From an uncultured Bacteroidia bacterium (GTDB lineage Bacteria; Bacteroidota; Bacteroidia; Bacteroidales; UBA932), in contig CADBYT010000022.1 of the NCBI GenBank assembly GCA_902798975.1, positions 1 through 40,195 of the forward strand: DNA of 40,195 bases. The letters run 5' to 3'. Below are positions 5,176-33,544 of the stretch, one piece after another (positions within the stretch are counted from its first letter, which is position 1; each line of letters begins with the position of its first letter). The translations under genes and the position numbers were made by a program. Below the pieces are notes generated by a model, which did not search any database, was not told where the DNA came from, and saw nothing but the letters and a program-made list of their open reading frames with translations.

Positions 5176-5189
5176 TCATCCCTTTTAAA

Positions 5190-5220: not shown

Positions 5221-5223
5221 CCT

Positions 5224-5571
5224 ATGGACAAACCTGCATCCACCAGACAGTTGAAGGTCGCGCGCGAAATCCAGCGCGACCTCTCCGAGATCATCCGCAG
5301 CCGCGGCATGGCAGCCTTCGGCGGCGCCATGGTCACGGTGAGCGAAGTGCGCATCAGCCCCGACCTCAGCATCGCGAAGGTCTTCGTGAGCATCTTCCCC
5401 TCCGACCGCGCCCCGCAGGTGATGCAGCTCCTCGAGGAGGAGAAGCGCAGCATCCGCGGCGAGCTCGGCCGCCAGGTCAGCTCCCAGCTGCGCATCGTGC
5501 CGGAACTCGATTTCCACCTGGACACGACGCTCGACTACGCGGAGCATATCGAGGAGCTCCTAAAGAAATAA
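5224..5571 (+). CDS. rbfA: Ribosome-binding factor A
   Basis: RbfA is a small KH-fold factor needed for late maturation of the 30S subunit and 16S rRNA 5' processing. The 115-residue product has the usual pattern: QLKVAREIQRDLSEIIRSRG near the start, VTVSEVRISPDLSIAKVFVSIFP in the middle, and a C-terminal helix ending FHLDTTLDYAEHIEELL, which is the RbfA signature. It is followed after 9 nt by the LolC/E-type permease, a gene order common in Bacteroidota. Confidence 0.93.
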   Translation: MDKPASTRQLKVAREIQRDLSEIIRSRGMAAFGGAMVTVSEVRISPDLSIAKVFVSIFPSDRAPQVMQLLEEEKRSIRGELGRQVSSQLRIVPELDFHLDTTLDYAEHIEELLKK

Positions 5572-5580
5572 TTCTGCCCT

Positions 5581-6852
5581 GTGCGGCCCGACCTTTATAT
5601 CGCGCGTCGGTACCTGGTGGCGAAGAAGTCGCTGGGCGTCATTCACGCGATATCTGTTTTGAGCGCCATCGGGATGGCGGTCGGCACCGCCGCACTCATT
5701 CTCATTCTCTCCGTTTACAACGGCTTCGACCGCATCATCAAGGAGAGTCTTTCCGACCTGGCGCCGGACGTGCTGGTCACGCCCGTTTCCGGAAAATACT
5801 TCGTGCCGTCCGGGCCTGCCTTCGACGCGCTGCTGGACGATTCGCGCGTGGCGCAGGTCTGCAGCGTGCTGGAGGAGGAGGTGTTCGTTTCCTACGGCGG
5901 GCGGCAGCAGCTGGCCCGTGCGAAGGGCGTGGATGCCGTCTACGAGGAGGAGTCGCAGCTGGCTTCCCACGTGGTCGAGGGCGAGTTTTCGCTGCATGAC
6001 GGCGACTTGCCCCAGGCGGTCGTAGGCGCCTCGCTGGCGCGTGAAATGGGCATCCGTACCCATTTCGTGGAGCCGCTGGTGCTGTATTATCCGCGGCGCG
6101 GCGCCCGGATTTCACTGCTTGGACCGACCGCGTCTCTGGGCAGCGTGAAGATGCAGCCGGCGGCGCTGGTCAGTGTGAATGCCACCGTGGACGGGGACCT
6201 GCTGGTGGTGCCGCTGGAGGAGATGCGCTCGCTGCTGGGATTGACGGATGAGGTCAGCGGGGTGGAGTTGCGGCTCGCCGGGGCGTCTTCCGGCCAGGCT
6301 GTCTCTTCCCGTACGAACCGGAAGTTCCTGCGGGAATTGCAGGAGTTGCTCGGGCCGTCCTATCGCGTGCAGGACCGGGTGCAGCAGCAGCCGTCCCTGT
6401 ACAAGATGATGCGCTACGAGAAGCTGGCTATCTATCTGATTCTGCTGTTTGTGGTGATTATCATCGCATCCAATATCTTCGGGTCCCTGTCGATGCTGTC
6501 CATCGCCAAGCGGGACGACATGGCAACGCTGCGTGCCATGGGCGCCGACGACCGCCTGGTCCGGCGCATCTTCATCTGGGAGGGCTGGCTGGTGTCGCTC
6601 TGCGGCCTGCTTGTCGGTCTGGTCACCGGTGTGGCCCTGGCTCTGGTGCAGCAGCATTTCGGCATCATCAAGATGCCCGGCGGCTTCTTCCTTCAGGCCT
6701 ACCCCGTCGTCCTGCAGCCCTCCGATGTCGTCTGGACCGTCCTCGGCGTCGGCGCCGTCGGCTTCCTCATCTCCCTCCTCGCCTCCCCGAAACCCGAATC
6801 CAGCTCCATCAGCACGCATTCCGCCACCAACGCCACCTCCACCCAGCGCTAA
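5581..6852 (+). CDS. LolC/LolE-type lipoprotein-releasing ABC permease
   Basis: This integral membrane subunit of the Lol/FtsX (MacB-like) permease family extracts lipoproteins from the inner membrane together with an ATPase that is not in the window. The start is GTG at 5581, 9 nt after rbfA, giving MRPDLYIARRYLVAKKS. The layout is one membrane segment at about residues 20-45, a large periplasmic domain, and three segments at about 280-305, 325-350 and 380-402 (the FtsX domain, with SMLSIAKRDDMATLRAMGA in the coupling region). The last 25 residues are an odd Ser/Thr/Pro-rich tail (SPKPESSSIST...) instead of the usual basic end, and codons there are more uniform than upstream. A late frameshift or a lineage-specific tail are both possible. 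Confidence 0.85.
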   Translation: MRPDLYIARRYLVAKKSLGVIHAISVLSAIGMAVGTAALILILSVYNGFDRIIKESLSDLAPDVLVTPVSGKYFVPSGPAFDALLDDSRVAQVCSVLEEEVFVSYGGRQQLARAKGVDAVYEEESQLASHVVEGEFSLHDGDLPQAVVGASLAREMGIRTHFVEPLVLYYPRRGARISLLGPTASLGSVKMQPAALVSVNATVDGDLLVVPLEEMRSLLGLTDEVSGVELRLAGASSGQAVSSRTNRKFLRELQELLGPSYRVQDRVQQQPSLYKMMRYEKLAIYLILLFVVIIIASNIFGSLSMLSIAKRDDMATLRAMGADDRLVRRIFIWEGWLVSLCGLLVGLVTGVALALVQQHFGIIKMPGGFFLQAYPVVLQPSDVVWTVLGVGAVGFLISLLASPKPESSSISTHSATNATSTQR

Positions 6853-7016: not shown

Positions 7017-7058
7017 GGCTGGAGCCGCCTCCCATTACGGAAGTCGGCGGCTCCAGCC
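7017..7058. repeat. E: perfect 13-bp inverted repeat
   Basis: GGCTGGAGCCGCC pairs with GGCGGCTCCAGCC around a 16-nt loop. The core of about 29 nt (GCCGCC, loop, GGCGGC) recurs nearly unchanged on the other strand at 26678-26708, inside the insertion sequence. Confidence 0.7.
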
Positions 7059-7142
7059 AGGTGATTGATGTGCCGGTCGGGCGGTTGGTGGAACTGAATG
7101 TGCTTGGGGGGCACCAGCGACTCGCGATACGCGGCTCGGCGC

Positions 7143-7200
7143 TTGCCGCGAGACGCTGCGCGAGCTCTTCAGTGGGCTCGCTCGCGCCCGCGGCTGCCCG
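7143..7200 (+). repeat. C1: core of module C
   Basis: This 58-bp GC-rich tract, with the stem GCGCGAGC/GCTCGCGC, recurs at 26428-26487 (reverse) and 31641-31698 with few changes. It ends 13 nt before the metY stop codon. Confidence 0.8.
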
Positions 7201-7213
7201 GTCAGGAGCGGGG

Positions 7214-8503
7214 CTAGAGTTCTGCGGCGGCAAGGGCCTGCTCGAGGTCGGCGATGATGTCGCGGGGATCCTCCAGGCCGATGCTCAATCTCATGAGACC
7301 GGGGTCAACACCGGCTTCGCGGAGCTGCTGGTCGGAGAGCTGCCGGTGGGTGTGGGAGGCCGGATGGAGGATGCAGGTGTAGCAGTCGGCCACGTGGGTC
7401 TCGATCGTCACCAGCTGCAGGTGGTCCATGAAGCGCTTGGCCTTCTCGCGATCACCCTTGAGGGCGAGCGCCATCACGCCGCAGGTGCCGTCAGGCAGGT
7501 ATTTCTGCGCCAGCGCGTGGTCCGGATCGTCGGCGAGGCCGGGATAGTGTATCCATTCCACGGCCGGATGGTCGTGGAGATATTCAGCCACCTTTTGCGC
7601 GGAAGCGCAGATATGCTTCATGCGGACGGCGAGCGTCTGGATGCCGAGGTTCAGGTAGAAGGCGTTCTGCGGGCTCTGAATGGAGCCGAGGTCGCGCATC
7701 AGCTGGCTGGTGGCCTTGGTGATGTAGGCCAGCTTGCCGAATTTCTTCGTGTAGGTGAGGCCGTGGTAGGACTCGTCGGGCGTGGTCAGGCCGGGGAATT
7801 TCTCCGCGTGCGCTTTCCAGTCGAAGTTGCCGCTGTCGATGATGGCGCCGCCGACCGTGGTACCGTGGCCGTCGAGGTATTTGGTCGTGGAATGCGTGAC
7901 GATGTCGGCGCCCCATTCGATCGGGCGCAGGTTGACGGGCGTCGGGAAGGTGTTGTCCACGATGAGTGGCACGCCGTGCTTGTGGGCGATGCGCGCCATG
8001 CGCTCGATGTCGAGCACGCGCACGCCGGGATTGGTCAGGGTCTCGCCGAAGAGGAGTTTGGTATTCGGGCGGAAGGCTGCCTCGATCTCCTCGTCGGAGG
8101 CGTTCTGGTCGATGAAGGTAACCTCGATGCCCATCTTCGGAAGGGTAACGCCGAAGAGGTTGTAGGTACCGCCGTAGATGGCCGAGGTGGTGATCATGTG
8201 GTCGCCGGCCGTGCAGATGTTGAAGCAGGCGAAGAAGTTCGCCGCCTGGCCGGAGGAGGTCAGCATGCCCGCCACACCGCCTTCCAGGGCAGCCAGACGC
8301 GCCGCGACGCGGTCGTTGGTCGGGTTCTGCAGACGGGTATAGAAGTAGCCGGAGGCTTCGAGGTCGAAGAGGCGGCCCATCTCGTCGGAGGTGGTATATT
8401 TGAAGGTCGTGCTCTGGATGATCGGCATTTGCCGGGGCTCGCCGTTCGCCGGCTCATACCCGGCCTGGACGCAGAGGGTGGAGGGATGGAGGTTCTGTTT
8501 CAT
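7214..8503 (-). CDS. metY: O-acetylhomoserine sulfhydrylase (homocysteine synthase)
   Basis: This PLP enzyme of the Cys/Met metabolism family makes homocysteine from O-acetylhomoserine and sulfide. The 429-residue length is typical of O-acetylhomoserine aminocarboxypropyltransferases and longer than cystathionine synthases. The sequence shows TLCVQAGYEP at the start, YFYTRLQNPTNDRVAARLAALEGG, the cofactor-ring-stacking Tyr in SAIYGGTYNLF, VDNTFPTP with the cofactor Asp, and the PLP lysine K208 in HSTTKYLDGHG. It is divergent from manA with a good -7 box of its own. The long loop from about residue 225 (SGNFDWKAHAEKFPGLTTPD) is a further mark of this subgroup. No SAM riboswitch is visible in the short leader. 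Confidence 0.92.
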   Translation of the reverse strand: MKQNLHPSTLCVQAGYEPANGEPRQMPIIQSTTFKYTTSDEMGRLFDLEASGYFYTRLQNPTNDRVAARLAALEGGVAGMLTSSGQAANFFACFNICTAGDHMITTSAIYGGTYNLFGVTLPKMGIEVTFIDQNASDEEIEAAFRPNTKLLFGETLTNPGVRVLDIERMARIAHKHGVPLIVDNTFPTPVNLRPIEWGADIVTHSTTKYLDGHGTTVGGAIIDSGNFDWKAHAEKFPGLTTPDESYHGLTYTKKFGKLAYITKATSQLMRDLGSIQSPQNAFYLNLGIQTLAVRMKHICASAQKVAEYLHDHPAVEWIHYPGLADDPDHALAQKYLPDGTCGVMALALKGDREKAKRFMDHLQLVTIETHVADCYTCILHPASHTHRQLSDQQLREAGVDPGLMRLSIGLEDPRDIIADLEQALAAAEL

Positions 8504-8545: not shown

Positions 8546-8553
8546 TAACTTTG
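8546..8553 (+). promoter_or_regulatory. -7 box for manA
   Basis: TAACTTTG is a full match to TAnnTTTG, 6 nt before the ATG at 8560. It predicts a nearly leaderless mRNA and argues against starting at the TTG at 8551, which lies inside the box. Confidence 0.6.
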
Positions 8554-8559
8554 CGCCGT

Positions 8560-9648
8560 ATGGAAGAAGAGAAGAAACTATATCCGGTCAAGTTCTGCAC
8601 CCTGCAGGACGATTACCCCTGGGGCAGTGAGGAATTCAAGCTCGCGGACCTGGGATATCGCGATTCGCTGATCCGCGAGGGATGGCTGGCGGGCAACAGT
8701 CTCGCCGAGTTGATGGACACCTATCTCGACCGCGTGGTCGGGGACAATGTATACGAATACTACGGCCGGCAGTTCCCGGTCTGCGTGCGCGTGCTGCACG
8801 TCAAGGGCCGCATGCCGCTCCGGGTGCATCCGGACGACGAGACCGCCGCGCAGCGTTATGATTTCCTGGGTAAGGAGAAACTCTGGTACGTCCTGCGCGC
8901 CGGCGCGGATGCCCGCCTGATGGTGGGCTTCCGGCGCGATACGGATGCCGCCGAGGTGTACGCCAAGTGCCTGGACGGCAGCATCGAAGAGGTGCTGAAC
9001 GTCATTGCTCCGCACGCCGGGCAGTGTCTGCATATTCCCGCCGGGACGCCGCACGCGGCCGCCGGGGATGTGGATATCCTGGAGATCGGCGAGTCCTCGC
9101 CGATGGATTTCTGCCTCTGCGGCTGGGGCGAGGAGGTGCATCCGGACGAGTTCGATCCGGCGCTCACCCTGGTGGATGCGCTGGACTGGATTGACTACCG
9201 GCAGTTCCGGTGCGAGCCGAGCGCGAGCGTCGTGGAGGACGGAGCGGAAAATGGTTTTTCGAGCAACCGCACGAAAAATATTTTCCGGCCGTCCGCTGGG
9301 AAAGGCGACGCGCCGGGTTCAGAACGGCTGCTCGATCTGCCGCAGCTGCGCGTCGACCGCATTCCCCTTTCCACGCCCCTGCAGGTCCGCCGCGAAGTCG
9401 GGCCCTTCCTCCTGTACAGCTGTGTCAAAGGTGGCGCGTCGGTGCAACTTCCGCTGGCCGGCGGGCAGCAACTGGATTTCCCGGTGAAGGTGGGTGAAAC
9501 CTTGCTGGTCCCGGCCGAATGTGCCGAATTCGTGCTCGGCCCTACCGAGCGGGACACCATCCTGCTGGAGACCACGGTGGTCCGCAACGATGCCGACCCC
9601 TACATCGACCCTTCCGCCGCCCCGACTCTCCCGGAAGACGCAGAATAA
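8560..9648 (+). CDS. manA: Type I mannose-6-phosphate isomerase
   Basis: This zinc-dependent cupin enzyme interconverts mannose 6-phosphate and fructose 6-phosphate. Start at ATG 8560 (MEEEKKLYPVKF) gives 362 residues. Seen in the sequence: YPWGSEEF near residue 20, the metal-site strand PLRVHPDD, EKLWYVL, then IPAGTPHAAAGDVDILEIGE, which carries later metal and active-site positions. A second cupin-like half follows (about 255-345). A stretch of about 30 residues near 222-252 (coding 9240-9330) is Asn/Ser/Lys-rich, poorly matched to the family and probably a loop. It lies alone, divergent from metY, and its end faces a repeat-filled gap. Confidence 0.85.
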   Translation: MEEEKKLYPVKFCTLQDDYPWGSEEFKLADLGYRDSLIREGWLAGNSLAELMDTYLDRVVGDNVYEYYGRQFPVCVRVLHVKGRMPLRVHPDDETAAQRYDFLGKEKLWYVLRAGADARLMVGFRRDTDAAEVYAKCLDGSIEEVLNVIAPHAGQCLHIPAGTPHAAAGDVDILEIGESSPMDFCLCGWGEEVHPDEFDPALTLVDALDWIDYRQFRCEPSASVVEDGAENGFSSNRTKNIFRPSAGKGDAPGSERLLDLPQLRVDRIPLSTPLQVRREVGPFLLYSCVKGGASVQLPLAGGQQLDFPVKVGETLLVPAECAEFVLGPTERDTILLETTVVRNDADPYIDPSAAPTLPEDAE

Positions 9649-9657
9649 CTGTTTTTC

Positions 9658-9866
9658 GTAAGTTTCTAACTATCAATATCATACAAAAGTAACCAGATCC
9701 TCCGGGACCTGGTTACTTTCATAGTTGTCTATCAATTAAACAATTACCAAGAACAGCACAACCGACCAGCAATCCCGTTTTTACCAACTCACATACAATC
9801 AGCATTTTACAAAAGTAACCGGGTCCGCGGGAACCCAGTTACTTTCATAAAACATTATCTATCAAT
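9658..9866 (+). repeat. A1: double-hairpin module A
   Basis: Hairpin 1 at 9686-9719 and hairpin 2 at 9812-9845 each pair AAAGTAACC with a GGTTACTTT-type arm (hairpin 2 with one change) over a C/G-rich centre. The starts are 126 nt apart. The spacer is diverged from A2/A3 but keeps the same length. Confidence 0.85.
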
Positions 9867-9918
9867 AACTTATCGAAAACATGCCCAATTACTTATCAAA
9901 AACACCGCCTTAGATAAA

Positions 9919-9951: not shown

Positions 9952-9968
9952 GCTTTCGCCGGTCGGCT

Positions 9969-10077
9969 TGTGAGCTACAAGAAACTCATTATCAATCGAG
10001 AACAAAAAAACACTACCCCCATTTCGGGGGTAGTATAATTTTATAATCTACTAATATCCAGCCACTTACAGCTCACA
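9969..10077. repeat. B2: quasi-palindromic module B
   Basis: The closing stem is TGTGAGCT with AGCTCACA. The inner hairpin pairs ACTACCCCC with GGGGGTAGT perfectly around a 5-nt loop (10012-10034). Confidence 0.85.
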
Positions 10078-10106
10078 GCAAATGCGGAGCCGGGCGGCTG
10101 GGAGGG

Positions 10107-23714: not shown

Positions 23715-26117
23715 ATGAGACAAGATAAAGAATTCACCCTCCCCGCTGGCGCAGAAGTCAGCATCATTCCCGTCATGCAGGGAGAAGGCCTGCTGAAAAT
23801 CGACGAGTCCGAACTCCCCGAGATCCTGCCGGTCCTGGCGCTCCGCAACGCGGTGCTCTTCCCGGGCGCCGTGTTCCCGATCACGATCGGGCGCGAGAAG
23901 TCCGTGCGCCTGATTCAGGACGCCGAGAAGGAAGGTTTCTTCATCGGCGCCGTGCCGCAGAACGACGTGATGGTCGAGGAGCCGCAGGAGGAAGACCTCA
24001 GCCGCTACGGCTCCGTCTGCAAGGTCCTGAAGACCCTGGAGATGCCGGACGGCACGATCACGGCCATCCTCCAGGCGTTCAAGCGCCTGCAGCTGGACGC
24101 CGTGCTCGGCTATGAGCCGTATATCACCGCCCGGGTGCATTATCTCCCCGAAATCCTGAATGAGGACCCGCACAGCACGGACATCAAAGCCATCAGCGAA
24201 TCGCTGAAGGACAAGGCCGTCCACCTGCTGCGCGCGAGCAATATCGGTACGCGCGAGACGATCGGCGCCCTCAAGGCGATCGACGATTTCCGCTTCCTCG
24301 TGAACTTCGTCGCGACCACCATCGAGGTGGAGAACTTCGAGTCGAAGATCCAGTTGCTGGAGATCGACGACGTCAAGGTGCGCGCGCTCAAGCTGCTCTC
24401 CGTGCTGGATTCGCAGGTGGAGCTGATGAAGATCAAGCAGGAGATCAACCAAAAGGTCAAGAGCGAGATCGACCAGCAGCAGCGCGAGTACTACCTCAAC
24501 AACCAACTGCGCACCATCCAGGAGGAGCTGGGTATGGACGACGAGCAGGAATTCGACAAGTTCCGCGAGCGCGCCGCCGCGAAGAAATGGCCCAAGGAGA
24601 TCGGGGAGGCCTTCAACAAGGAGCTCTCCAAGCTCGAGAAATACAATCCGTCTTCCCCGGACTACAGCGTCCAGTACAATTATCTGGAGTTCATGCTCGA
24701 CCTGCCCTGGGGCGAGATGAGCCAGGACAACCTGGACCTCAAGCACGCGCAGAAGGTGCTGGACGGCGACCACTATGGCCTCGATTCGGTCAAGGACCGC
24801 ATCATCGAGTATCTCGCCGTGCTCAAGCTGAAAGGCAATATGAAGTCCCCTATTCTCTGCCTCTACGGCCCTCCGGGCGTGGGCAAGACCTCGCTGGGCA
24901 AGTCCATCGCCAAGTCGCTCGGTCGCAAGTACGTGCGCATCGCCCTGGGCGGCATGCACGACGAGGCGGAGCTGCGCGGCCACCGCAAAACCTACGTGGG
25001 CGCCCTTCCGGGCCGCATCCTGAACGGCATCGCCCGCGCCGGCACCTCCAACCCGGTCATCGTGCTGGACGAGGTGGACAAGCTGGCCGCCGACTTCAAG
25101 GGCGACCCGTCTTCGGCCCTGCTGGAGGCGCTGGATCCGGAGCAGAATTCCACCTTCCACGATAACTATCTCGACCTGGACTACGACCTCAGCAACGTCC
25201 TCTTCATCACCACGGCCAACAGCACCGCGCCCATCCAGCCGGCCCTGCTCGACCGCATGGAGCTGATCAACGTGACGGGCTACCTGGCCGAGGAGAAGAT
25301 GGAGATCGCGAAGAAATTCCTCGTGCCCAAGCAGCTCGAGGAGCACGGCATCGAGAAGAACGCGCTCAAGATCGACAAGGCGGCCCTCGCCGCCATCATC
25401 GACGAGTACACCCACGAATCGGGCGTGCGCGGCCTTGAGAAGCAGATTGCGAAGCTCGCCCGCGTGACCGCGAAGAAGATCGCCCTCGGCGAGGAGTATC
25501 CTTCCGTCATCAAGAAGGAGCACCTGAAGGAGTATCTCGGTCTGCCCACCAATTTCCACGACCTGCAGAAGGGCAACGAAGCGCCCGGCGTGGTCACGGG
25601 CCTCGCCTGGACCCAGATGGGCGGCGAGATCCTCTTCGTGGAGAGTTCCATCTCGAATGGCAAGGGCGTGATGTCCATGACCGGCAATCTGGGCGACGTG
25701 ATGAAGGAGTCGGCGACCATCGCCTACCAGTATATAAAGGCGCATCCGGAGATGGCAAAGATGACCTCCGAGGAGTTCGCAGCCAAGGACCTGCACGTGC
25801 ACGTGCCTGAAGGGGCCACCCCGAAGGACGGCCCGTCAGCGGGTATCACGATGGTGAGTTCGATGGTGTCGGCGCTGCGCGGCCAGGCGGTCAAACACGG
25901 TATCGCCATGACCGGCGAAATGACGCTGCGCGGCCGCGTGCTGCCTGTCGGCGGCATCAAGGAGAAGATTCTCGCCGCCAAGCGCGCCGGGGTCCACACG
26001 ATCGTCATCTCGGAGGACAACCGCAAGGATATCGAGGACATCAAGGAGATCTACGTCCGCGGCCTCGAATTCCACTACGTCAAGACCATCCAGGACGTCA
26101 TCAGCTTCATCTTCTAG
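23715..26117 (+). CDS. lon: ATP-dependent Lon protease
   Basis: Lon degrades damaged and regulatory proteins in the cytoplasm. The 800-residue product has the LON substrate-binding domain (about 30-230, [20 protein letters not shown]), a coiled-coil linker, the AAA+ module with Walker [14 protein letters not shown] near residue 386 and Walker [10 protein letters not shown] near 450, and the protease domain with the catalytic Ser in [14 protein letters not shown] near 705 and Lys in [17 protein letters not shown] near 748. Length and order are those of normal LonA. It has its own promoter, divergent from HU, and its 3' end faces the repeat-filled gap before the IS. Confidence 0.97.
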
Positions 26118-26147: not shown

Positions 26148-26254
26148 GTGAGTCACAACCGACTAGATATCAGCTTGTTACATAATTATACTCCCCCAAA
26201 AATCGGGGGAGTATAATTTTATAATCAGTTGAAATATAGCTATTCACGACTCAC
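26148..26254. repeat. B3: quasi-palindromic module B with swapped closing stem
   Basis: The closing stem reads GTGAGTC with GACTCAC, where B1 and B2 have GTGAGCT with AGCTCAC: both sides changed together. The inner hairpin is a perfect 13-bp stem, ATTATACTCCCCC with GGGGGAGTATAAT (26185-26217). Confidence 0.85.
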
Positions 26255-26266
26255 AAGAAATGTATC

Positions 26267-26286
26267 GTCCTGACGGGAGTTTACCA
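26267..26286 (-). repeat. D unit, reverse copy
   Basis: The minus strand reads GGTAAACTCCCGTCAGGACG; the L4 copy at 31710-31729 differs at one base. It joins modules B and C in both loci. Confidence 0.7.
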
Positions 26287-26313
26287 ATCTGGGTGCGGGC
26301 AGAACCTGGCACC

Positions 26314-26337
26314 ACCGCCGGGCGCGCGCCCGGCGGT
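26314..26337. repeat. Perfect 24-bp palindrome without a loop
   Basis: ACCGCCGGGCGC is followed directly by its exact reverse complement GCGCCCGGCGGT. It sits in the insert that distinguishes L3 from L4. Confidence 0.8.
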
Positions 26338-26338
26338 T

Positions 26339-26389
26339 ACGAGCGATCTCCGCTTTCGAGCTTTGGAGGGCTCGACGCGGAGTGCTCGT
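26339..26389. repeat. Three-block hairpin in the L3 insert
   Basis: ACGAGC, CTCCGC and TCGAGC pair in nested order with GCTCGA, GCGGAG and GCTCGT across short internal loops, giving 18 base pairs around an 8-nt loop. Confidence 0.7.
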
Positions 26390-26427
26390 TGCCGGCAAGT
26401 GAGGTGGCTGCCCGCCCCGCTCTTCCC

Positions 26428-26529
26428 CGGGCAGCCGCGGGCGCGAGCGAGCCCACTGAAGAGCTCGCGCAGCGTCCTGCGGCAGCCGCCGGAAAGCGTA
26501 TATTCCGGCGGCGGTGCCCCTGTTTTCCG
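26428..26529 (-). repeat. C2: module C, reverse copy
   Basis: Read on the minus strand it matches C3 from GGAAAACAGGGGCACC through a perfect 10-bp stem (GCCGCCGGAA with TTCCGGCGGC) to the 58-bp core. Its end forms a further stem, CGGGCAGCC, with 26406-26414. Confidence 0.85.
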
Positions 26530-26539
26530 CCCGACGCCT

Positions 26540-26547
26540 GGTTTTGC
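26540..26547. repeat. Left 8-bp target site duplication of the IS
   Basis: GGTTTTGC here and at 27713-27720 is a perfect direct repeat at both ends of the IS; 8-9 bp duplications are normal for IS256-like elements. Confidence 0.75.
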
Positions 26548-26591
26548 GGTCTAATAGACATTTCGGGTGATGGATTCCCATCAAAAAGATC

Positions 26592-26612
26592 CTATTAGAC
26601 ATTTCGGGAGAT
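26592..26612 (+). repeat. Second copy of the IS end sequence
   Basis: CTATTAGACATTTCGGGAGA repeats the left end (26551-26570) with two changes, 41 bp inward and in the same direction. Confidence 0.7.
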
Positions 26613-26677
26613 AAATCTGGCAACAGTCAAGCGCGGAGCGAGCCGTTCCATCGAGCTCGGCGGAGCGCTTGATCTGT

Positions 26678-26708
26678 AGCCGCCGACTACCGTAATGGGA
26701 GGCGGCGG
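26678..26708 (-). repeat. E hairpin copy inside the IS
   Basis: On the minus strand GCCGCC and GGCGGC flank the same loop as the E hairpin at 7024-7052, with one base changed in the loop. It lies just after the transposase stop codon. Confidence 0.65.
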
Positions 26709-26711
26709 TGC

Positions 26712-27671
26712 CTAGTAATGGCGAGTGATATACTCATCTATCAGTTTCTTCCTGTGTTCTCGAGTAAGTCCGCTATGGACACGTACCTTAGACTTGATGT
26801 CTGAGAAAATGCCTTCCAGGCCGTTATTCGTGTTAGGTATGATTCTATCTCTATAATCATAGAATGTCCATAGCCAAGACATATGTCTGCGTAAGCTTAG
26901 ATATGCGCTCCTTAATCGGGGACGCATATACGGAGGTGTTCTCCGCTTGATTCTCTTGTCATGGACACGCTCATTTAATACGTCCTTGTATTTGTCGTAC
27001 CACTCGTTAAATGCACCGATAAAGCACTCCTTGTCCATTATCGTGATGGCATTGACGAGATCCAGCAGATCTCTGGCAGCATCCAAATCTGGATCCTCAG
27101 CGAGGTATCTTCGGACTATCATTTGCTGATGAAACTGACACATCTGGACGGGATACCTTTTAAGTGCCTGCATCAATCCCCACATTCCGTCAATGACGAT
27201 ACCGTATATCCTGAAGCCATGTTTCTCAAGCCAGGAGACGCCTTCCAGGTAATCTGCTATGGTCTCATGCGTGACGTATTTGCGCCATAAAATCTTCTTC
27301 CGAAGAGAGTCCTTGATGACCATCAATCCAAAGTTCCGACCCCAGTATGTCGTGTCCATTTGGACAATCACTTGCTTGTATTTGGAGATCTTCTGCACAT
27401 AGCGCATCCCGGTGAGATCTCGAGCGATGGTCTTCGTGGACACCTGGTACTTATCGGCAAGCTGTGCCATTGTTTGCTTACCTTCGATATAGTCGGTGAT
27501 TACTTGAGCTTTGTCTCGACGCAAACCGCCGTCAAAACGGCGTCCACAGTCCTTGCATTTATACCGCTGAATACGGCCTCTCAGGCCATCGTGGACCACA
27601 TTTTTCGACCCGCAGAAAAAGCATTTTTTTAAGCATATCAATGATAATCTTTGCAAAGGTATGAATTTCAA
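26712..27671 (-). CDS. IS256-like transposase with N-terminal zinc ribbon
   Basis: The 319-residue product is a DDE transposase of the IS256 group, zinc-binding variant. Residues 17-42 form a zinc ribbon (Cys17, Cys20, Cys39, Cys42). A helix-turn-helix follows at about 65-90 (TMAQLADKYQVSTKTIARDL). The catalytic triad fits Asp106 (VQMDTTYWG), Asp161 (GIVIDGMWGL) and Glu286 (NTNNGLEGIFSDIK), and the CQFHQQ block near 178-183 is the conserved Cys/His insert of the IS256/MULE group. All key residues are intact, so it is likely active. The reading frame starts 17 nt inside the right end repeat. Confidence 0.88.
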   Translation of the reverse strand: MKFIPLQRLSLICLKKCFFCGSKNVVHDGLRGRIQRYKCKDCGRRFDGGLRRDKAQVITDYIEGKQTMAQLADKYQVSTKTIARDLTGMRYVQKISKYKQVIVQMDTTYWGRNFGLMVIKDSLRKKILWRKYVTHETIADYLEGVSWLEKHGFRIYGIVIDGMWGLMQALKRYPVQMCQFHQQMIVRRYLAEDPDLDAARDLLDLVNAITIMDKECFIGAFNEWYDKYKDVLNERVHDKRIKRRTPPYMRPRLRSAYLSLRRHMSWLWTFYDYRDRIIPNTNNGLEGIFSDIKSKVRVHSGLTREHRKKLIDEYITRHY

Positions 27672-27712
27672 TTCATTGCAAGGATTTCATCACCCAAAAT
27701 GTCCAATAGCCC

Positions 27713-27720
27713 GGTTTTGC
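27713..27720. repeat. Right 8-bp target site duplication of the IS
   Basis: GGTTTTGC, identical to 26540-26547, abuts the right end of the IS. Confidence 0.75.
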
Positions 27721-27735
27721 TGTTTTTGGTAATCT

Positions 27736-27946
27736 GCTGATTTGAAAATGATTACAAAAGTAACCAGGTCCTATGGGACCTGGTTACTTTTGTAAAACGC
27801 TGGTTGTGAAGAAGTTGGAGAAAACAGAACAAAACGCTATCTAAGCTGTTTTTAATAACTGATTAAGTGATAGCTGGTTATGAGAGTAACCGGGCCCAAA
27901 AGAACCTGGTTACTCTCATAGATTATTGATATCCAGAAGCTTATAA
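27736..27946 (-). repeat. A2: double-hairpin module A, reverse copy
   Basis: Hairpins at 27757-27790 and 27883-27916 start 126 nt apart. Read on the minus strand, the spacer matches A3 closely (for example ATCACTTAATCAGTTATT and CACAACCAGCGTTTTAC). This is the only content of the gap between the IS and the next gene, apart from 35 bp of tail. Confidence 0.87.
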
Positions 27947-27981
27947 AAAACAGCTTCAACTACCAACCGCGGGCGGGTCAG

Positions 27982-29121
27982 CTATTCCTCGAAGAGGTCG
28001 TCCGGTTCGAAGAGGCCCTCGCAGTAGGCGTCGTAGGTGTAGCCGGCGATCGGGTAGTCGGGCACGTCGTCGACCGGGGCGATGAAGCGGATCACAACGG
28101 GGGTCAGGTACATCTCGGCGTCGGGGTTTTCGGCCTTGGTTGCATTCCAGTCATCCACGATCATGTGCTTGGTCGGAGTCAACTTAGTGCCGTCGAAGTT
28201 GTAGGCCTTCAGCTCGCGGGTGCCGACTTCGTAGTTGAAGACGAGCCAGGAGCTGGCGACGCCGAGGTCGTCGATAAAGGCGTAGCTCTGCACTTCGTTG
28301 TAGTAGTTGATCTGCTCCTCCTCTTCCTCCTCAGGATCATAGATGACGAAGCCACCGTCCCCAAGCGCGACACCCTCCGGGTTGAGGCCCATCAGGCGGG
28401 GAAGGGCGTTCAGGCTGACGTCGTCGAGGCCGTCGAAGTCCTGGCGGACGAAATGCACGCCGTTCCAGCCGTAGTCCACGTCGAGGGCCGTGCCGGGATA
28501 CGCCGCGTCGCTGCCCTCTTCCGGATAGAACAGGTAGTCGACATCCAGCGTCACGGACAGCAGGCCGTCCTCACCGGAGCCGAAGGTATAGCTGTAGTTG
28601 GGGTCCATGTAGTGCCACTCACCGCTGTCGATCAGCGCACTGATGAGGTCCGCGGAGAGCATGTCTTCCATGTTCGGCGTGGGCAGGAGCCAGACTTCTT
28701 CCTTGGTCAGCTTGCCTTTCACGTAGTTGTAGGCGCCGCCCCGGTCGAAGCCGCAGAGGCCGTCATAGCCGCCGTAGGCGACCCAGTAGGCCCGCCAGCC
28801 GCCGCTCTCGAGCGGATAGCACTTGACGTTGATGTAGCCGTAGAAGCCGGAGTCCATGCCCTCGACCATGTGGCCCTCCACGCCGGCCGAGAAGAAGGTC
28901 GGGTCGAACGCGGGAACGTCCGCCGGGTCATACTCGCTGTAATCGGTCTGCTGCACGTGCGCGCAGTAGTCCGGCAGGTCCTCCTTGGGAATGAGGTCGA
29001 AGATAGTTTTGGCGATGTAGTCGTCAGTTGCGTCCGCCGCCTTGTTCCCGCCCTTGCAGGCGGTCAGCGCCAGGCCGGAGCAGAGCAGCGCGGCCAGGGC
29101 GATCATGCTTAGTTTTTTCAT
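27982..29121 (-). CDS. Large lipoprotein of unknown function
   Basis: The 379-residue product has a lipoprotein signal (MKKLSMIALAALLCSGLALTAC, Cys22). The mature protein is acidic and rich in Tyr, Asp and Gly, with stretches such as GFYGYINVKCYPLESGGW and GGYDGLCGFDRGGAYNYV, and a run of six Glu near residue 267 (DPEEEEEEQINYY). It looks like a folded extracytoplasmic domain, but I do not recognise the family. It is the last gene of a four-gene unit (coaD, thioredoxin-like, small basic protein, this), 12 nt after the small gene. Its 3' end faces module A2 and the IS. Confidence 0.75.
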   Translation of the reverse strand: MKKLSMIALAALLCSGLALTACKGGNKAADATDDYIAKTIFDLIPKEDLPDYCAHVQQTDYSEYDPADVPAFDPTFFSAGVEGHMVEGMDSGFYGYINVKCYPLESGGWRAYWVAYGGYDGLCGFDRGGAYNYVKGKLTKEEVWLLPTPNMEDMLSADLISALIDSGEWHYMDPNYSYTFGSGEDGLLSVTLDVDYLFYPEEGSDAAYPGTALDVDYGWNGVHFVRQDFDGLDDVSLNALPRLMGLNPEGVALGDGGFVIYDPEEEEEEQINYYNEVQSYAFIDDLGVASSWLVFNYEVGTRELKAYNFDGTKLTPTKHMIVDDWNATKAENPDAEMYLTPVVIRFIAPVDDVPDYPIAGYTYDAYCEGLFEPDDLFEE

Positions 29122-29133
29122 GGTATCTACTAA

Positions 29134-29376
29134 CTAGAATAATTTTGGATGGCTCTCTTCCAGGCCGGTGAGCACGCGCTCCATCACCGCCTGGCGGATC
29201 AGTGCCGAGCGGGACGAGACCTTGAAACGTTTGCAATACGTGTCGATGGCCGCGAGCTCCTGTGCGTTGAACAGCACGGACTTGCGGTGGACGCGCCGGA
29301 GGGAGGCCCGCTGCTTGTCGAGGTAGGCGGGGTCGACGCCGGCGAATTTCTTGCTACTCTTCTTCTTTTTGGCCAT
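29134..29376 (-). CDS. Small basic protein, possibly ribbon-helix-helix
   Basis: The 80-residue product has a Lys-rich start (MAKKKKSSKKFAGVDPAYLD) and a C-terminal half that looks like a ribbon-helix-helix or related short DNA-binding fold: RKSVLFNAQELAAIDTYCKR, then VSSRSALIRQAVMERVL. DNA binding is inferred only from this pattern. It overlaps the end of the thioredoxin-like gene by 23 nt and is followed after 12 nt by the lipoprotein gene. No toxin partner is seen, so an antitoxin role is not supported. Confidence 0.65.
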   Translation of the reverse strand: MAKKKKSSKKFAGVDPAYLDKQRASLRRVHRKSVLFNAQELAAIDTYCKRFKVSSRSALIRQAVMERVLTGLEESHPKLF

Positions 29377-30166
29377 AGAGCATATTGATATATTGGATCA
29401 TTTCCATCAGGCTGTCCATCTCGAGGCGCCGCCCGATGATCTCTCCCTCCCAGACCACGAAGATCTTGGGCGTGGAGAAAACGCCGTAGTCGAGCAGCAG
29501 CGTGGACTCGGAATTCGGGTCCCAAAGGTGGATCATCCTGACCTTTCTATTGCTGGTCTTGAGCGACTTGCGGAAGGCCTTGAAGGCCCGCTTGTCGGCA
29601 TCCACGTTGATGGCGTAGAAGTTCAGCGGGAACTCGACCGCCGCGAGCACGGTGGGCAGCGCGTAGGTCTCCAGGCGGCATTTCGCGCATTCGGGCGAAT
29701 AGAACATCAGCACGCAGGCGCGGTCCGCGACCGGCAGCGTCTTGCGGCCGCCGCAGGGGGTGCGCAGGGTGAGCTGCGGCGCGGGCATGCCGATCAGGGT
29801 GTTGCGGTGTTCGAGGGCGAATCGCTCCGCTTCGAACATTTCGAATTCGCTGCGCGTCTGCACGAGACCCGGCTCAATCCAGGTGTCGTAGAGGTGCACG
29901 GCCACGGCTTCCTCGCCCATCACGCGGCTGTAGCGGTAATGGTCAAAGATGGCGAGCGCCACGTGCTGGCGCATCAGCGAATCGGTGCAGGACGAGATCA
30001 GGTCGTCGAATTCGGCATTCTTCACCTCGACGTCCTCGTAGAGCAGGGCGCCGTAGAATTGCGTCAGCAAGCTGTCCAGCGGCGCATAGACGCCGGTCGT
30101 GTCCATCTGCGCGGCAGCGCGGAACGTGCACGTGAGTGCGAACAGCAGGATGACGAATTTTCTCAT
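29354..30166 (-). CDS. Periplasmic thioredoxin-fold protein with N-terminal DUF5106-like domain
   Basis: The 270-residue product has a signal peptide (MRKFVILLFALTCTFRAAAQ), a helical N-terminal region with features of DUF5106 (LLTQFYGALLYEDVEV, DSLMRQHVALAIFDHYRYSR), and a C-terminal thioredoxin fold: IGMPAPQLTLRTPCGG, then VLMFYSPECAKCRLETYALP with the CxxC pair, then a cis-Pro in YGVFSTPKIFVVW. It probably reduces or isomerises disulfides in the periplasm. The start overlaps the coaD stop as ATGA, so it is translationally coupled to coaD. The DUF assignment is from pattern memory and less sure than the thioredoxin fold. Confidence 0.78.
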   Translation of the reverse strand: MRKFVILLFALTCTFRAAAQMDTTGVYAPLDSLLTQFYGALLYEDVEVKNAEFDDLISSCTDSLMRQHVALAIFDHYRYSRVMGEEAVAVHLYDTWIEPGLVQTRSEFEMFEAERFALEHRNTLIGMPAPQLTLRTPCGGRKTLPVADRACVLMFYSPECAKCRLETYALPTVLAAVEFPLNFYAINVDADKRAFKAFRKSLKTSNRKVRMIHLWDPNSESTLLLDYGVFSTPKIFVVWEGEIIGRRLEMDSLMEMIQYINMLYGQKEEE

Positions 30167-30636
30167 AATACTTCGGGCAGGACGACCCCTTCGGGCAGGA
30201 ACTGGCTGGTGTCGCCGTGGTGGCGGAGCAGGTCGCGCACGGCCGAAGAAGAGATGTGGGCGAACTCCTGCGCCGTCGGGATGATGATGGTCTCGATCTC
30301 CGGCGCGAGGCGGCGGTTGGCGTCCGCGATGGCCTTCTCGTTGTCGAAGTCCATCATGTTGCGGATGCCGCGCACGATGTGGCGTATGCCCAGCTGGCGG
30401 CAGATGTCGATGGTCAGGCTGTCGTAGGAGACGACGCGCACGCGGTCGCCGAGCTGCTCGGTGGCCTGGCGGATGATGTCCAGCTTCTGCTCGTTGGTGA
30501 AAAAACCGCGCTTGTCCTGGTTGATACCGACGGCGACGACCACCTGGTCGAACATCGTCAGCGCACGGCCGAGGATATTGAGATGGCCCGCGGTGAACGG
30601 GTCGAACGATCCCGGAAAGAGAGCTATCGTGTTCAT
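30163..30636 (-). CDS. coaD: Phosphopantetheine adenylyltransferase
   Basis: CoaD carries out the penultimate step of coenzyme A synthesis, adding AMP to 4'-phosphopantetheine. The 157-residue product shows the nucleotidyltransferase start MNTIALFPGSFDPFTAGHLN with the (T/H)xGH motif, the binding loop VVVAVGINQDKRGFFT, RHIVRGIRN, and the C-terminal ISSSAVRDLL. Start at 30636 is set by MNTIALFPGSF and by a -7 box just upstream. The GIRNMMDFDNEKAIADANRRL segment is a little unusual in order but keeps the family's key Arg residues. It leads a four-gene unit and is divergent from ung. Confidence 0.95.
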   Translation of the reverse strand: MNTIALFPGSFDPFTAGHLNILGRALTMFDQVVVAVGINQDKRGFFTNEQKLDIIRQATEQLGDRVRVVSYDSLTIDICRQLGIRHIVRGIRNMMDFDNEKAIADANRRLAPEIETIIIPTAQEFAHISSSAVRDLLRHHGDTSQFLPEGVVLPEVL

Positions 30637-30643
30637 AACGAAC

Positions 30644-30671
30644 AAATATAGGCAAAAAATGTGTATATTTG
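30644..30671. promoter_or_regulatory. Divergent -7 boxes for coaD and ung
   Basis: The minus strand has TATATTTG (30651-30644) 7 nt before the coaD ATG, and the plus strand has TATATTTG (30664-30671) 4 nt before the ung ATG at 30676. Both mRNAs would be almost leaderless. Confidence 0.6.
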
Positions 30672-30675
30672 GGTG

Positions 30676-31344
30676 ATGACCGTAAAAATCGAACCTTCCT
30701 GGCGCGAAGCGCTCCAAAGCGAATTCGACCAGCCCTATTTCGCCGCCCTGGCGCAGCAGCTGCATGCAGAGAAGGCTGCCGGGCGCACCATCTTCCCGCC
30801 GGGCGGGGAGATCTTCCGCGCGTTTGACCTCTGTCCGCTGGATCAGACCAAGGTCGTGATCCTGGGCCAGGACCCCTACCACGGCTACGGCCAGGCCATG
30901 GGCCTGTGCTTCAGCGTGCCGCAGAATGTCCCGGCGCCGCCTTCGCTCAAGAACATCTTCAAGGAGATCGAGACCGATCTCGGCGTGCGCATGTCCGGGA
31001 GTCCGGACCTCACGCCGTGGGCCCGGCAGGGCGTGCTGCTGCTCAACGCGGTGCTGACCGTGCGGGCGGGAGAGCCCACCTCGCACAGCGGTATCGGCTG
31101 GCAGACCTTCACCGATGCGGTGATCCGTACGGTCAGCGAGCGGCGCGACGGGGTGGTGTTCCTGCTCTGGGGCAATTACGCCCGCAGCAAAGCGCCGCTC
31201 ATCGACTCCTCGCGCCACCTCGTACTCGAGGCGGCGCATCCCTCACCGCTGGCCCGCGGCGCCTTCTTCGGCTGCCGCCACTTCTCCCGCTGCAACGAAT
31301 TCTTGACCGCCCACGGCCAGCCCCCGATCGACTGGAAGATCTAG
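30676..31344 (+). CDS. ung: Uracil-DNA glycosylase, family 1
   Basis: Ung removes uracil from DNA to start base-excision repair. The 222-residue product shows the water-activating loop VILGQDPYHG with the catalytic Asp, the uracil pocket LLLNAVLTVRAGE, VFLLWGNYA, and the DNA-intercalation loop HPSPLARGAFFGCRHFSRCN. These are the family 1 signatures. Start at ATG 30676 (MTVKIEPSWR) follows from the -7 box, which overlaps the earlier possible start. It stands alone on the plus strand and its 3' end faces locus L4. Confidence 0.95.
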   Translation: MTVKIEPSWREALQSEFDQPYFAALAQQLHAEKAAGRTIFPPGGEIFRAFDLCPLDQTKVVILGQDPYHGYGQAMGLCFSVPQNVPAPPSLKNIFKEIETDLGVRMSGSPDLTPWARQGVLLLNAVLTVRAGEPTSHSGIGWQTFTDAVIRTVSERRDGVVFLLWGNYARSKAPLIDSSRHLVLEAAHPSPLARGAFFGCRHFSRCNEFLTAHGQPPIDWKI

Positions 31345-31351
31345 CTGCTTC

Positions 31352-31568
31352 TTATAAGTCTCTAAATATCAGTAATATACAAAAGTAACCGGGTTCTCTT
31401 GGGCCCGGTTACTTTCATAACCAGCTATCACTTAATCAGTTATTGAAAACAACTCAGATAGCGTATTGTTCTGTTATCTCCAACTTCCTCACAACCAGCG
31501 TTTTACAAAAGTAACCAGGTTCCACAGGACCTGTTTACTTTCATAATCATTTTCAAATCAACCGATTA
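31352..31568 (+). repeat. A3: double-hairpin module A
   Basis: Hairpins at 31382-31415 and 31508-31541 start 126 nt apart. Left and right flanks (TATAAGTCTCTAAATATCAG; TCATTTTCAAATCAACCGAT) also match A2, which marks the module as longer than the hairpin pair. Confidence 0.87.
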
Positions 31569-31597
31569 CAAAAAAACGGCACAGGCTGGCGGAGGGT

Positions 31598-31698
31598 GGA
31601 AAACAGGGGCACCGCCGCCGGAATATACGCTTTCCGGCGGCTGCCGCGAGACGCTGCGTGAGCTCTTCAGTGGGCTCGCTCGCGCCCGCGGCTGCCCG
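31598..31698 (+). repeat. C3: module C
   Basis: It holds the 10-bp stem GCCGCCGGAA/TTCCGGCGGC and the 58-bp core shared with C1 and C2. In the core stem a C-to-T change (GCGTGAGC) still allows a G-U pair. Confidence 0.85.
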
Positions 31699-31709
31699 CC
31701 CCTCTGGTC

Positions 31710-31729
31710 GGTAAACTTCCGTCAGGACG
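31710..31729 (+). repeat. D unit
   Basis: GGTAAACTTCCGTCAGGACG links modules C and B, as in the reverse copy at 26267-26286. Confidence 0.7.
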
Positions 31730-31739
31730 TCCGTTTGCT

Positions 31740-31843
31740 TGTGAGCTGTAACTGGTTGTTGATGAGAGTTCTACTGTTTCACACTACCCCCACAATAGGG
31801 ATAGTATAAAATGATATTTCTTTGATTTACAGCCTGTTACACA
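31740..31843. repeat. B4: degenerate module B
   Basis: The left end keeps TGTGAGCTG but the right end has changed, so the best closing stem is GCTGTAA with TTACAGC. The inner stem pairs ACTACCCC with GGGATAGT, with one mismatch. Confidence 0.7.
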
Positions 31844-31857
31844 TCATAGTAGAAGTG

Positions 31858-31924: not shown

Positions 31925-33544
31925 TTACCGCTTGCCGAGGAGGAGGCGGACGAGGAGGAAGGCGGCGAGGAGCAGGAAGACCAGCGTGCAGACGCGGCCG
32001 ATGATGTCGCCGTGGCGCACGAAGGCAGTCTGTTCGGAGGACAGGTTGACGGTACCGGACAAAGTCTGGCGGGTCCACCAGGCGGAAGACGAAAGGATCT
32101 CGCCGCGCTGGTTGATGAAGGCGGAGATGCCGGTGTTGCCGCAGCGGGCGATGTCGCGGCGCAGCTCGATGGCGCGCAGCGACGCGAAACTCAGGTGCTG
32201 GCGATAGCCCGGGGTATTCCCCCACCAGGCATCGTTGGTGATGATGGTCATGGCCTGCGCCCCGGCGCGCACGTATTCCGTGCAATATTCCCCGTAGACC
32301 GACTCATAGCAGACGGCGCAGCCCAGCGGGGTGCGCTCCGCCCCGAAATGCAGCAGCGACACGCCGTCCTGCCCCACGCAGCGGCCCATCAGGCCGCCCA
32401 CGCCCATTTTGGCGGACAGCCAATTATCCAGCGGCACAAAAACACGAGGATAGGGCGTAAACTCGGTGCCCACGACCAGCTTGCTCTTGTGGTAGACTTC
32501 CACCGGACCCTCGGCGTGCGCCATCAGGGCGCTGTTGTGCGAGACTATCCAGCCGTCGCCGTAAGAGCGGGCCAGGATGGTCGGCGCCGCGTGGGTCTGG
32601 AAGAGTTCGTAGGTGCTGGCGCCAAAGAGCAGCCCGGCACCGGGATGCCCGCCCAGGAAGGCGCGGAAACGCTGCAGCGTGCGCGAATTTTCGGGCTCGT
32701 TCAGGAGCACGTCGCCGGTAAAGGTTTCGGGCGCGAGCAGCAGCACGGGGCCCTCCGGACGCCCGGAAAGCACCTCGGAGAACTGCCCCAGCAGGATCTC
32801 GGTCTGCTCGGCCTGCGGGAGGGATTCGAATTTCTCGTAAGGGTCGAAATTGGGCTGGCCGACGACCACGTCCACCACCCCTTCCGAGCGCTCCTCATAG
32901 GACGCCCAGATCATTTTGGAGGCCACCACGGGGCCGGCGATCACCAGGATGATGCCCACCGCGGCGCAGGCGCGCGCAATGCCGTTCCAGCGCTGCCAGA
33001 GCCCGCTGCCGACGGCCACGATGAGGCCGTAGATGCCCAGGTTCGCCGCCCATACCCAGAGCGAGCCGCCCAGGGAGCCGGTGAATTCGTACCACTGCAC
33101 CGTGCGGATGCTGCGGGCGAAGGCGTTGCCCAGCGTGAGCCAGGGCCAGGAAATGTCCACGAAGAAGTAGCGCCGCTCCCAGGCGATCCACATCGCCGCG
33201 AGGAAGATGTAGGGCAGCGCGCCGCCCATTTTCTTTTTCGCGAGGCGGAAAATGAGCCACACGGCAAACATCTGTACGGCGTTGCCGAAAATGGCGAACA
33301 GGCCGCCGCCGACCGTCGCGTTGCACACCCAGAAGGTCGTGGCGGCGTTCCATGCCACGAGGGTGAAAGCGGGCAGCAGCCACGAGGCCCGCATCTTCAG
33401 CTCATGCGCCACCTCGTCGGCGAAGAGCAGCGGAACGAAGGCGACCAGCGCCAGCGCCCCCACGTGGGGCACCAGCCAGGGCAGGCTCAGCAGCAGCGCG
33501 GACAGCGCGGAGCACAGCCATAGGACGACGAACGGCTTTCTCAT
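31925..33544 (-). CDS. lnt: Apolipoprotein N-acyltransferase
   Basis: Lnt adds the third acyl chain to the N-terminal Cys of lipoproteins in the inner membrane. The 539-residue product has several N-terminal membrane segments (first: VVLWLCSALSALLLSLPWLV) and a periplasmic nitrilase domain with the catalytic set Glu in LLLAPETFTGD, Lys in VYHKSKLVVGTEFTP, and Cys in LGCAVCYESVYGEY, then a final membrane segment (VCTLVFLLLAAFLLVRLLL). This fits a genome that also encodes a LolC/E-type permease and many lipoproteins. It overlaps the pseudouridine synthase gene by 4 nt (ATGA) and is the last gene of the lysE-PASTA-rluD-lnt unit. Confidence 0.93.
   Translation of the reverse strand: MRKPFVVLWLCSALSALLLSLPWLVPHVGALALVAFVPLLFADEVAHELKMRASWLLPAFTLVAWNAATTFWVCNATVGGGLFAIFGNAVQMFAVWLIFRLAKKKMGGALPYIFLAAMWIAWERRYFFVDISWPWLTLGNAFARSIRTVQWYEFTGSLGGSLWVWAANLGIYGLIVAVGSGLWQRWNGIARACAAVGIILVIAGPVVASKMIWASYEERSEGVVDVVVGQPNFDPYEKFESLPQAEQTEILLGQFSEVLSGRPEGPVLLLAPETFTGDVLLNEPENSRTLQRFRAFLGGHPGAGLLFGASTYELFQTHAAPTILARSYGDGWIVSHNSALMAHAEGPVEVYHKSKLVVGTEFTPYPRVFVPLDNWLSAKMGVGGLMGRCVGQDGVSLLHFGAERTPLGCAVCYESVYGEYCTEYVRAGAQAMTIITNDAWWGNTPGYRQHLSFASLRAIELRRDIARCGNTGISAFINQRGEILSSSAWWTRQTLSGTVNLSSEQTAFVRHGDIIGRVCTLVFLLLAAFLLVRLLLGKR

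Follow-up and report, generated by a model that had tools for sequence, protein, structure and literature searches.

Inverted nests of dispersed palindromes bracket a coaD-ung gene block that has flipped repeatedly in a Bacteroidales species group

Introduction

Canonical repetitive extragenic palindromic (REP) sequences are 20-40 nt long with a GTAG foot, and the palindromes of REP-associated tyrosine transposases (RAYTs) have mostly been treated as terminators, gyrase sites, or targets of insertion. In RAYT/REP systems (REPtrons, BIMEs, and REPINs), a Y1/HUH-type gene lies between palindromes, orphan copies of which are dispersed, and several families occur per genome, nested in clusters. 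Here we describe a locus with palindromes reminiscent of these systems in an uncultured member of the Bacteroidales, in which two composites of hairpin modules in the order A-C-D-B face opposite ways and enclose a block of genes that includes coaD and ung. The window that we analyzed is the whole 40,195-nt stretch of DNA, positions 1-40195 of contig C22 (CADBYT010000022.1) in a 2.09-Mb assembly that is 71% complete, and its genome is labeled G000. In close relatives, lon and lnt enclose the block in one orientation or the other, and it has flipped repeatedly in the species group. In the explanation that we prefer, to which we assign a probability of roughly 0.56, nests of mobile palindromes would lie at two inversion-prone convergent gene ends, with inverted arms made or exchanged there.

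The palindromes of this locus differ from those of RAYT/REP systems in being ~110 bp long, each with a core hairpin between inverted ends of ~13 bp (CNGTTTTTnGTAA or TGTGAGCTGTAA), and in their few copies (16 of A and about 7 of B found). With ~110 nt and the consensus end CTGTTTTTnGTAA, they also depart from the canonical REP form. Bacteroidales invertible segments, which occur in both orientations between inverted repeats, resemble the segment studied here in that both orientations are found, but the arms here vary between species, and the readable reversed species are without them. No recombinase was noticed among the open reading frames (ORFs) of the window, in which no search aimed at recombinases was made.

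Passages on subclass 2.6 of the TnpA-Y1 transposases describe Bacteroidetes genes whose flanks hold "atypical secondary structures" that recur at other places in the genome and whose motifs are NH[LIV]H and YIH[QN]NP (PMC6006769). The genes considered below share the host phylum and the flanking structures copied elsewhere, but they carry YTHVH, FTHFH, or FTHTH together with Y-x-x-NNP in a comparison by motifs alone. Likewise, the BrickBuilt miniature inverted-repeat transposable elements of Porphyromonas gingivalis are presented as short noncoding elements with terminal inverted repeats in the Bacteroidales (PMC4596501), as are the palindromes here, whereas the A/B type lies beside a Y1-like gene, and target duplication for A or B is not established. 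REP clusters are reported as rearrangement hot spots in Pseudomonas (PMC11708052), and TRIP1 repeats are reported to bound large inversions in Escherichia coli (PMC10888264). Searches of the open-licence PMC literature, by title and the start of the abstract, turned up nothing on RAYT/REP palindromes that bound recurrent small inversions, which is weak evidence for the novelty of the arrangement; inversion papers on eukaryotes did come up.

Orientation of the gene block in relatives

Our close set consisted of the window and the 20 other genomes, among 400 of the genus, with an Ung of at least 85% identity. The window orientation (lon> <rhh <trx <coaD ung>) occurred in 10 of these 21 genomes and the reversed one (lon> <ung coaD> trx>) in 11, which is the result that the sequence-only reading had itself proposed as a test of inversion. 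One reversed genome, G308, was oriented by lnt, its contig being without lon. lon and lnt lay on two sides of the block in 16 of the 21 contigs (10 window-like and 6 reversed); in G284, there was no lnt within the 5 kb to the contig end. The listed flank genes kept their order and strand wherever they were present, with the exception of the pair g20783/g14366.

Both orientations could in principle be artifacts of metagenome assembly around repeats, since the named relatives are metagenome-assembled genomes or uncultured-bacterium records and four reversed contigs (G058, G015, G150, and G308) stop within the block or at its edge. We consider this very improbable because six reversed and ten window-oriented contigs cross both junctions, several of these contigs having no repeat there. 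The sequence-only reading had further suggested that the block may have been captured, and repeats on both sides would be expected of a composite transposon between two mobile repeats. We give next to no credence to capture: the block adjoins lon in 20 of the 21 close genomes, that is, in all whose contig holds lon, with or without repeats, and in G008, which has the window order, the lnt side measures 6 bp and the lon side, of 116 bp, holds a single short hairpin.

Five changes of orientation were required by a tree built from six flank genes (25 rows, including four outgroups); starred branches forced four of them, and among 200 bootstrap trees not one could be reconciled with a single change. 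Grouping of the reversed genomes as one clade was rejected (p-AU of 8e-51 with 11 well-filled rows; G365, under the 80% filling limit, was left out). A tree of the four block genes also required repeated changes (six, four of them forced), so transfer of a fixed block is not the explanation. In the wider genus, ung> stood directly after lon> in 46 of 66 further named loci (counted by hand), and this order may therefore be the older one.

Two further observations concern the same region. A piece comprising rng-HU-lon, with outward genes as its bounds, was turned relative to the block in G368 (L138), G194 (L139), L157, and L158 and appears to be a second flipping unit. In L156 and L160, about 3.3 kb lies between trx and coaD, where relatives have almost nothing.

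Inverted composites and junctions

Copy 1 of the composite (26148-27965, minus strand, interrupted by an IS256-type insertion sequence [IS]) and copy 2 (31344-31846, plus strand, thus opposite to copy 1) enclose the genes hyp379-rhh-trx-coaD-ung (Table 1). That the order A-C-D-B recurs inverted once the IS is ignored was borne out by an alignment of the copies without the IS, which gave 85.1% identity across 489 columns, including an exact run of 50 nt, and all of the A-C and D-B joints quoted in the sequence-only reading were found in both copies. Two corrections to that reading are that D is ~120 nt shorter in copy 2 and that B aligned poorly except at the D-B joint and the start of B. Module A was found to comprise two ~110-bp palindromes in each copy. 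A repeat search of the window gave inverted arms at 27723-27965/31333-31575 (243 nt, 87%), 26428-26550/31576-31698 (123 nt, 91%), and 26250-26285/31710-31745 (36 nt, 81%). Searched in its own genome, copy 2 matched copy 1 far beyond chance (E values of 2.7e-79 for A and 4.5e-44 for C/D).

In three species, both block ends carry long inverted arms, which belong to a different, unrelated family in each: G000 (88% over 233 nt, 295 bits), G200 (88% over 135 nt, 172 bits), and G080 (84% over 118 nt, 128 bits). For module A in G000, copy 1 scored 291 bits against 91.5 bits for the next place. The four best rows of the G200 arm search were all at block ends, and the best elsewhere reached 52.7 bits. 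In G080, whose assembly is 78% complete, the arm search hit only the two block ends, and it hit nothing in five relatives. The repeat families at the block ends differed even between sister species.

Immediately behind the lon stop, the left arm of G080 starts with AAGCGGTAG, which by eye is the last codons and stop of lnt. An lnt tail beside lon points to copying between the two ends; since the tail ends in GTAG, the REP foot, a shared insertion target may instead be responsible. This tail was read by eye from the junction sequences and was missed by our scan of wrong junctions for gene-end relics, in which the majority of hits came from the native lnt end because the protein match had truncated it. 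The one hit of note in the scan was a second ung end in G108, and 213 of 5,200 shuffled junctions also had a 12-base hit. The ung-lnt junction of G108 (L122) contains this second, slightly different ung 3' end (17 nt, a G200-like allele) and a second lnt end, and its sequence looks as if another allele had recombined there.

Measured between protein-match ends, the lnt-side gap was 5-65 bp in the reversed genomes readable at both ends (n = 6). In two of these, G251 and G065, it was 8 or 5 bp, and the lon side had 2 bp, with CTAG common to the lon and ung stops. With junctions such as those of G008, G251, and G065, the present state of flipped genomes does not require the composites. Opposite orientations were also compared in G302 (window order) and G097 (reversed), the one pair readable in detail, where a common ORF with an HxH motif adjoins lon and, by eye, a hairpin array adjoins ung in both. 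As the array stays with ung, the inverted piece would run from the array through ung to rhh and would break at the array edge rather than through a crossover of flanking repeats.

These junctions bear on the proposal of the sequence-only reading that homologous recombination between the arms makes the block invertible, with switching within a population. The inverted arms with their 50-nt exact run and the occurrence of both orientations among relatives are what it predicts. We nevertheless regard it as improbable, and the data do not support this composite as the cause of the flipping: the six reversed relatives readable at both ends are without matching paired arms, the piece inverted between G097 and G302 carries the hairpin array along with ung and breaks at the hairpin edge, the arms are not homogenized, and orientation retains phylogenetic signal. 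Inverted repeats at both ends in either orientation, as in invertible segments, were thus not what we observed.

The ORFs at the G097, G200, and G302 junctions obtained no model support as RAYTs and are called ORFs with an HxH motif. They are related ~315-aa ORFs with an SHxH motif that lie by GCCAGGGGC hairpins (L124, L125, and L128, respectively). Searches of family models and Pfam with the G097 junction protein gave no relevant match, and these ORFs possibly encode an undescribed hairpin-associated enzyme.

Dispersed modules

The composite was taken in the sequence-only reading for a single four-part element of no known repeat class. Its parts, on the contrary, are not unique in the genome and form a nest of dispersed repeats: they gave 29 match rows on 12 contigs of the window assembly (some places counted on both strands), and other module orders occur at contigs C4 (A, B, GC hairpin, C/D) and C25 (B, C/D, A). 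Nor does the lack of a known class hold for A and B, which flank RAYT-like genes in relatives.

Module A, in an alignment of 16 copies from its own genome and one from G365, is a 110-bp palindrome with CTGTTTTTnGTAA ends and the core AAAGTAACCGGG; eight exact cores were counted. Its pairing is strong (84% of cells, compared with 51% or less after sliding), and its covariation was matched by 141 of 500 shuffles; because covariation does not exceed shuffles, we call A a palindrome and not a conserved RNA. Module B is a palindrome of ~110 bp with TGTGAGCTGTAA ends and the core TACTCCCC, present about seven times in its own genome. C/D is GC rich and folds strongly, and its core motif occurred in 11 stretches among the fetched genome parts. 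Within four other D copies (L022, L023, L025, and L026) lies the hairpin CGATGCGACCCC, exact or in a similar form; this hairpin also flanks, on each side, the region matched in a RAYT-like gene at contig C13 of the window genome. A distant-mode search of the phage collection with copy 2 gave no match.

Other nests were seen in passing. The hairpin CGATGCGACCCCC..GGGGGTCGCATCG (L093, 2399-2436 and 3485-3524) brackets the C13 RAYT-like gene and recurs, exact or slightly altered, inside four D copies, a palindrome nested in another element. Elsewhere in the window, an A-A pair (9648-9883) and a B palindrome (~9960-10084) follow the gene at 8551-9648 without C/D, and the gene at 7214-8503 has a GC hairpin and a D-type core (7024-7214) at its 3' end.

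RAYT-like genes beside A- and B-type palindromes

At the lon-ung junction of G058 lies a gene whose product matched REP_Tyr_transpos with an E value of 2.4e-6 (27.5 bits; cutoff, 80), and relatives of this protein occur in 213 of the 400 genus genomes (E ≤ 1e-40). A related gene (81% identity) adjoins ung in G108 as well; G108 and G058 have opposite orientations. The proteins of this group carry an HxH motif (YTHVH, FTHFH, or FTHTH) and Y-x-x-NNP, and we chose the label "RAYT-like" because the motifs are present while the scores lie below the cutoff of the RAYT model and Pfam is blank. In the genome search with NF047646, E values were 7e-6 (G365:C140), 2.4e-6 (G323:C7), and 3.8e-5 (G097:C1), all with scores under the 80-bit cutoff, as were the scores of single proteins against the RAYT model (E values of 2.1e-5 for L295, 3e-6 for L265, and 9.4e-5 for L275).

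Palindromes of ~110 bp were associated with these genes. At 30 transposase loci, seven were in real flanks against one in shuffled flanks. A scan of near and far stretches, which were of unequal length, gave 10 near, 7 far, and 0 in shuffled upstream stretches; it covered 25 of the 30 loci, 5 with cut flanks being dropped, and 1 of the 10 near cases (L266) looks unrelated. B-type palindromes lie on both sides of the RAYT-like gene at G323:C7 (L271; downstream copy by eye), and A-type palindromes with the same AAAGTAACCGGG core lie on both sides of the gene at G365:C140 (L295; by eye). At G097:C1 (L275), A-type ends with a different core surround the gene (by eye). All of these flanking palindromes were seen in relatives and none in the window genome. 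There, the G058 RAYT-like protein found no match and the genome's own RAYT-like matches are without A or B in the stretches scanned, so that, to the extent of this assembly, the window copies of A and B are orphans.

In L078, short repeats with CCGTCCTGACGG-GGCAGCAGG and AATCAAGCGGCGTG-like units surround the RAYT-like gene of the G058 junction, at 3625-4090 and 5000-5820. In L272, a GC hairpin that by eye resembles the C/D type lies downstream of a RAYT-like gene.

Genes and insertion sequence of the window

The names of three genes are presumptive: coaD and ung follow the sequence-only reading, and lnt is named from its protein. Both block ends, lon/block and block/lnt, are convergent. No part of the window matched Rfam at gathering scores.

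The IS in copy 1 has the family transposase, terminal inverted repeats (TIRs), and 8-bp target duplication of the IS256 family, in which duplications are 8-9 bp. Its transposase matched NF048019 (E value of 1e-117, 392.7 bits against a cutoff of 150), and NCBIfam supplied the name, Pfam giving no match at 0.001. IS256 is listed among the families said to target REPs (PMC1525189).

Table 1. Features of the composites, the gene block and its flanks, by position in the window
Feature	Position	Strand	Basis or remark
lon, fixed left flank	23715..26117	+	ORF; adjoins HU and rng in relatives with long enough contigs
Module B, copy 1: ~110-bp palindrome, TACTCCCCC/GGGGGAGTA core, GTGAG...CTCAC ends	26148..26257	-	
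Modules C + D, copy 1: GC-rich structured element, GGCACC to GGTGCC	26308..26518	-	Fold; core motif
8-bp target duplication GGTTTTGC, left	26540..26547	.	
IS, 1165 bp, IS256 family variant Zn-binding type	26548..27712	-	Transposase ORF 26712-27671; TIRs
8-bp target duplication GGTTTTGC, right	27713..27720	.	
Module A palindrome, copy 1 inner	27719..27828	-	
Module A palindrome, copy 1 outer	27845..27954	-	
Hypothetical protein, 379 aa (hyp379), block	27982..29121	-	ORF; not seen in the block in several relatives
Ribbon-helix-helix-like protein (rhh), 80 aa, block	29134..29376	-	RHH_1 E 0.001, 19.4 bits, just under cutoff 20.5
Thioredoxin-like protein (trx), block	29354..30166	-	Thioredoxin_2 E 6e-4, below cutoff
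coaD, block	30163..30636	-	ORF; conserved in relatives
ung, block	30661..31344	+	ORF; ATG at 30676
Module A palindrome, copy 2 outer	31344..31453	+	
Module A palindrome, copy 2 inner	31470..31579	+	
Modules C + D, copy 2 (shorter D)	31608..31700	+	
Module B palindrome, copy 2, diverged core	31738..31846	+	
lnt, right flank	31925..33544	-	ORF; present in relatives

Discussion

In the explanation that we prefer, each composite would be a nest of noncoding mobile palindromes, in which A and B would be the terminal palindromes of RAYT-like (Y1/HUH transposase) elements, orphaned here as far as the assembly goes, and C/D would be a second, GC-rich dispersed element; the IS256-type IS would have entered copy 1 later. 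Such nests would settle at both convergent gene ends, and because both ends are convergent, flipping of the block breaks no transcription unit. The two window copies are homologous; inverted duplication, or exchange between the ends at an inversion or through conversion, is their most likely origin, rather than two independent insertions. We infer that arms arise with inversions or assist them; recombination between arms is only one of the possible routes.

Several observations weigh against this explanation. Only 3 of the 16 genomes with both flanks have long inverted arms, all three window oriented, and 5 of the 16 have no repeat common to both ends. The end-to-end match in G302 reached only 39 bits, and in G108 a direct match was better than the inverted one; 6 of the 16 genomes, with a gap of ≤20 bp on a side, were left out of the end comparison. 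Paired arms were accordingly found in none of the six reversed genomes (two compared, four with a gap of ≤20 bp) against 3 of the 10 window-oriented ones. In C/D of G000, copy 1 (174 bits) and the copy at C4 (149 bits) are roughly equally close, and copy 1 is no nearer to copy 2 than to C4. With identities of 82-88%, the arms speak against exchange that is both frequent and recent. Flipping is also not fast, since orientation tracks the tree more than shuffled labels do (mean of 8.5 changes against 5 on the flank tree, with 5 and 11 of 500 shuffles as low). Inversion is not specific to the block, as g20783/g14366, left of rng, is turned in G080 (L121) and G200 (L125) in a second small inversion. 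The transposase assignment is weak: none of the 21 genomes exceeded the 80-bit cutoff of NF047646, and Pfam at E values up to 1 returned nothing for three RAYT-like proteins. Finally, the four RAYT-like matches of the window genome, in its 71%-complete assembly, have other hairpins, with no A or B in the stretches scanned.

Some of these observations would also be expected if the events were independent, with palindromes gathering at convergent ends, the block drifting in orientation because its inversion is harmless, and the match between copies reflecting coincidence or target preference. The comparable genomes that share nothing between their ends (n = 5) and the variation of repeat families even between sister species fit this alternative, and REPs are described as often lying between convergent genes (PMC1525189). 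We hold it to be rather unlikely, given that the arms are mutual best matches in three species and three families (in G000 for A only, not for C/D) and that an lnt tail lies beside the left G080 arm.

Our preferred explanation of nests with arms made or exchanged at convergent ends leaves room for a more specific route, in which aborted or one-ended transposition of a RAYT palindrome into the other convergent end would flip the block and leave behind inverted copies and a few bases of the neighboring gene. We consider this route unlikely. If true, RAYT-type palindromes would turn ordinary housekeeping blocks into recurrently invertible cassettes. A recurrently flipping housekeeping locus with different palindrome families at the same two ends may offer a natural series for separating cause from mark in small inversions, and it reveals, in an uncultured genus of many species, palindromes that are long, have inverted ends, and lie next to their likely transposases.

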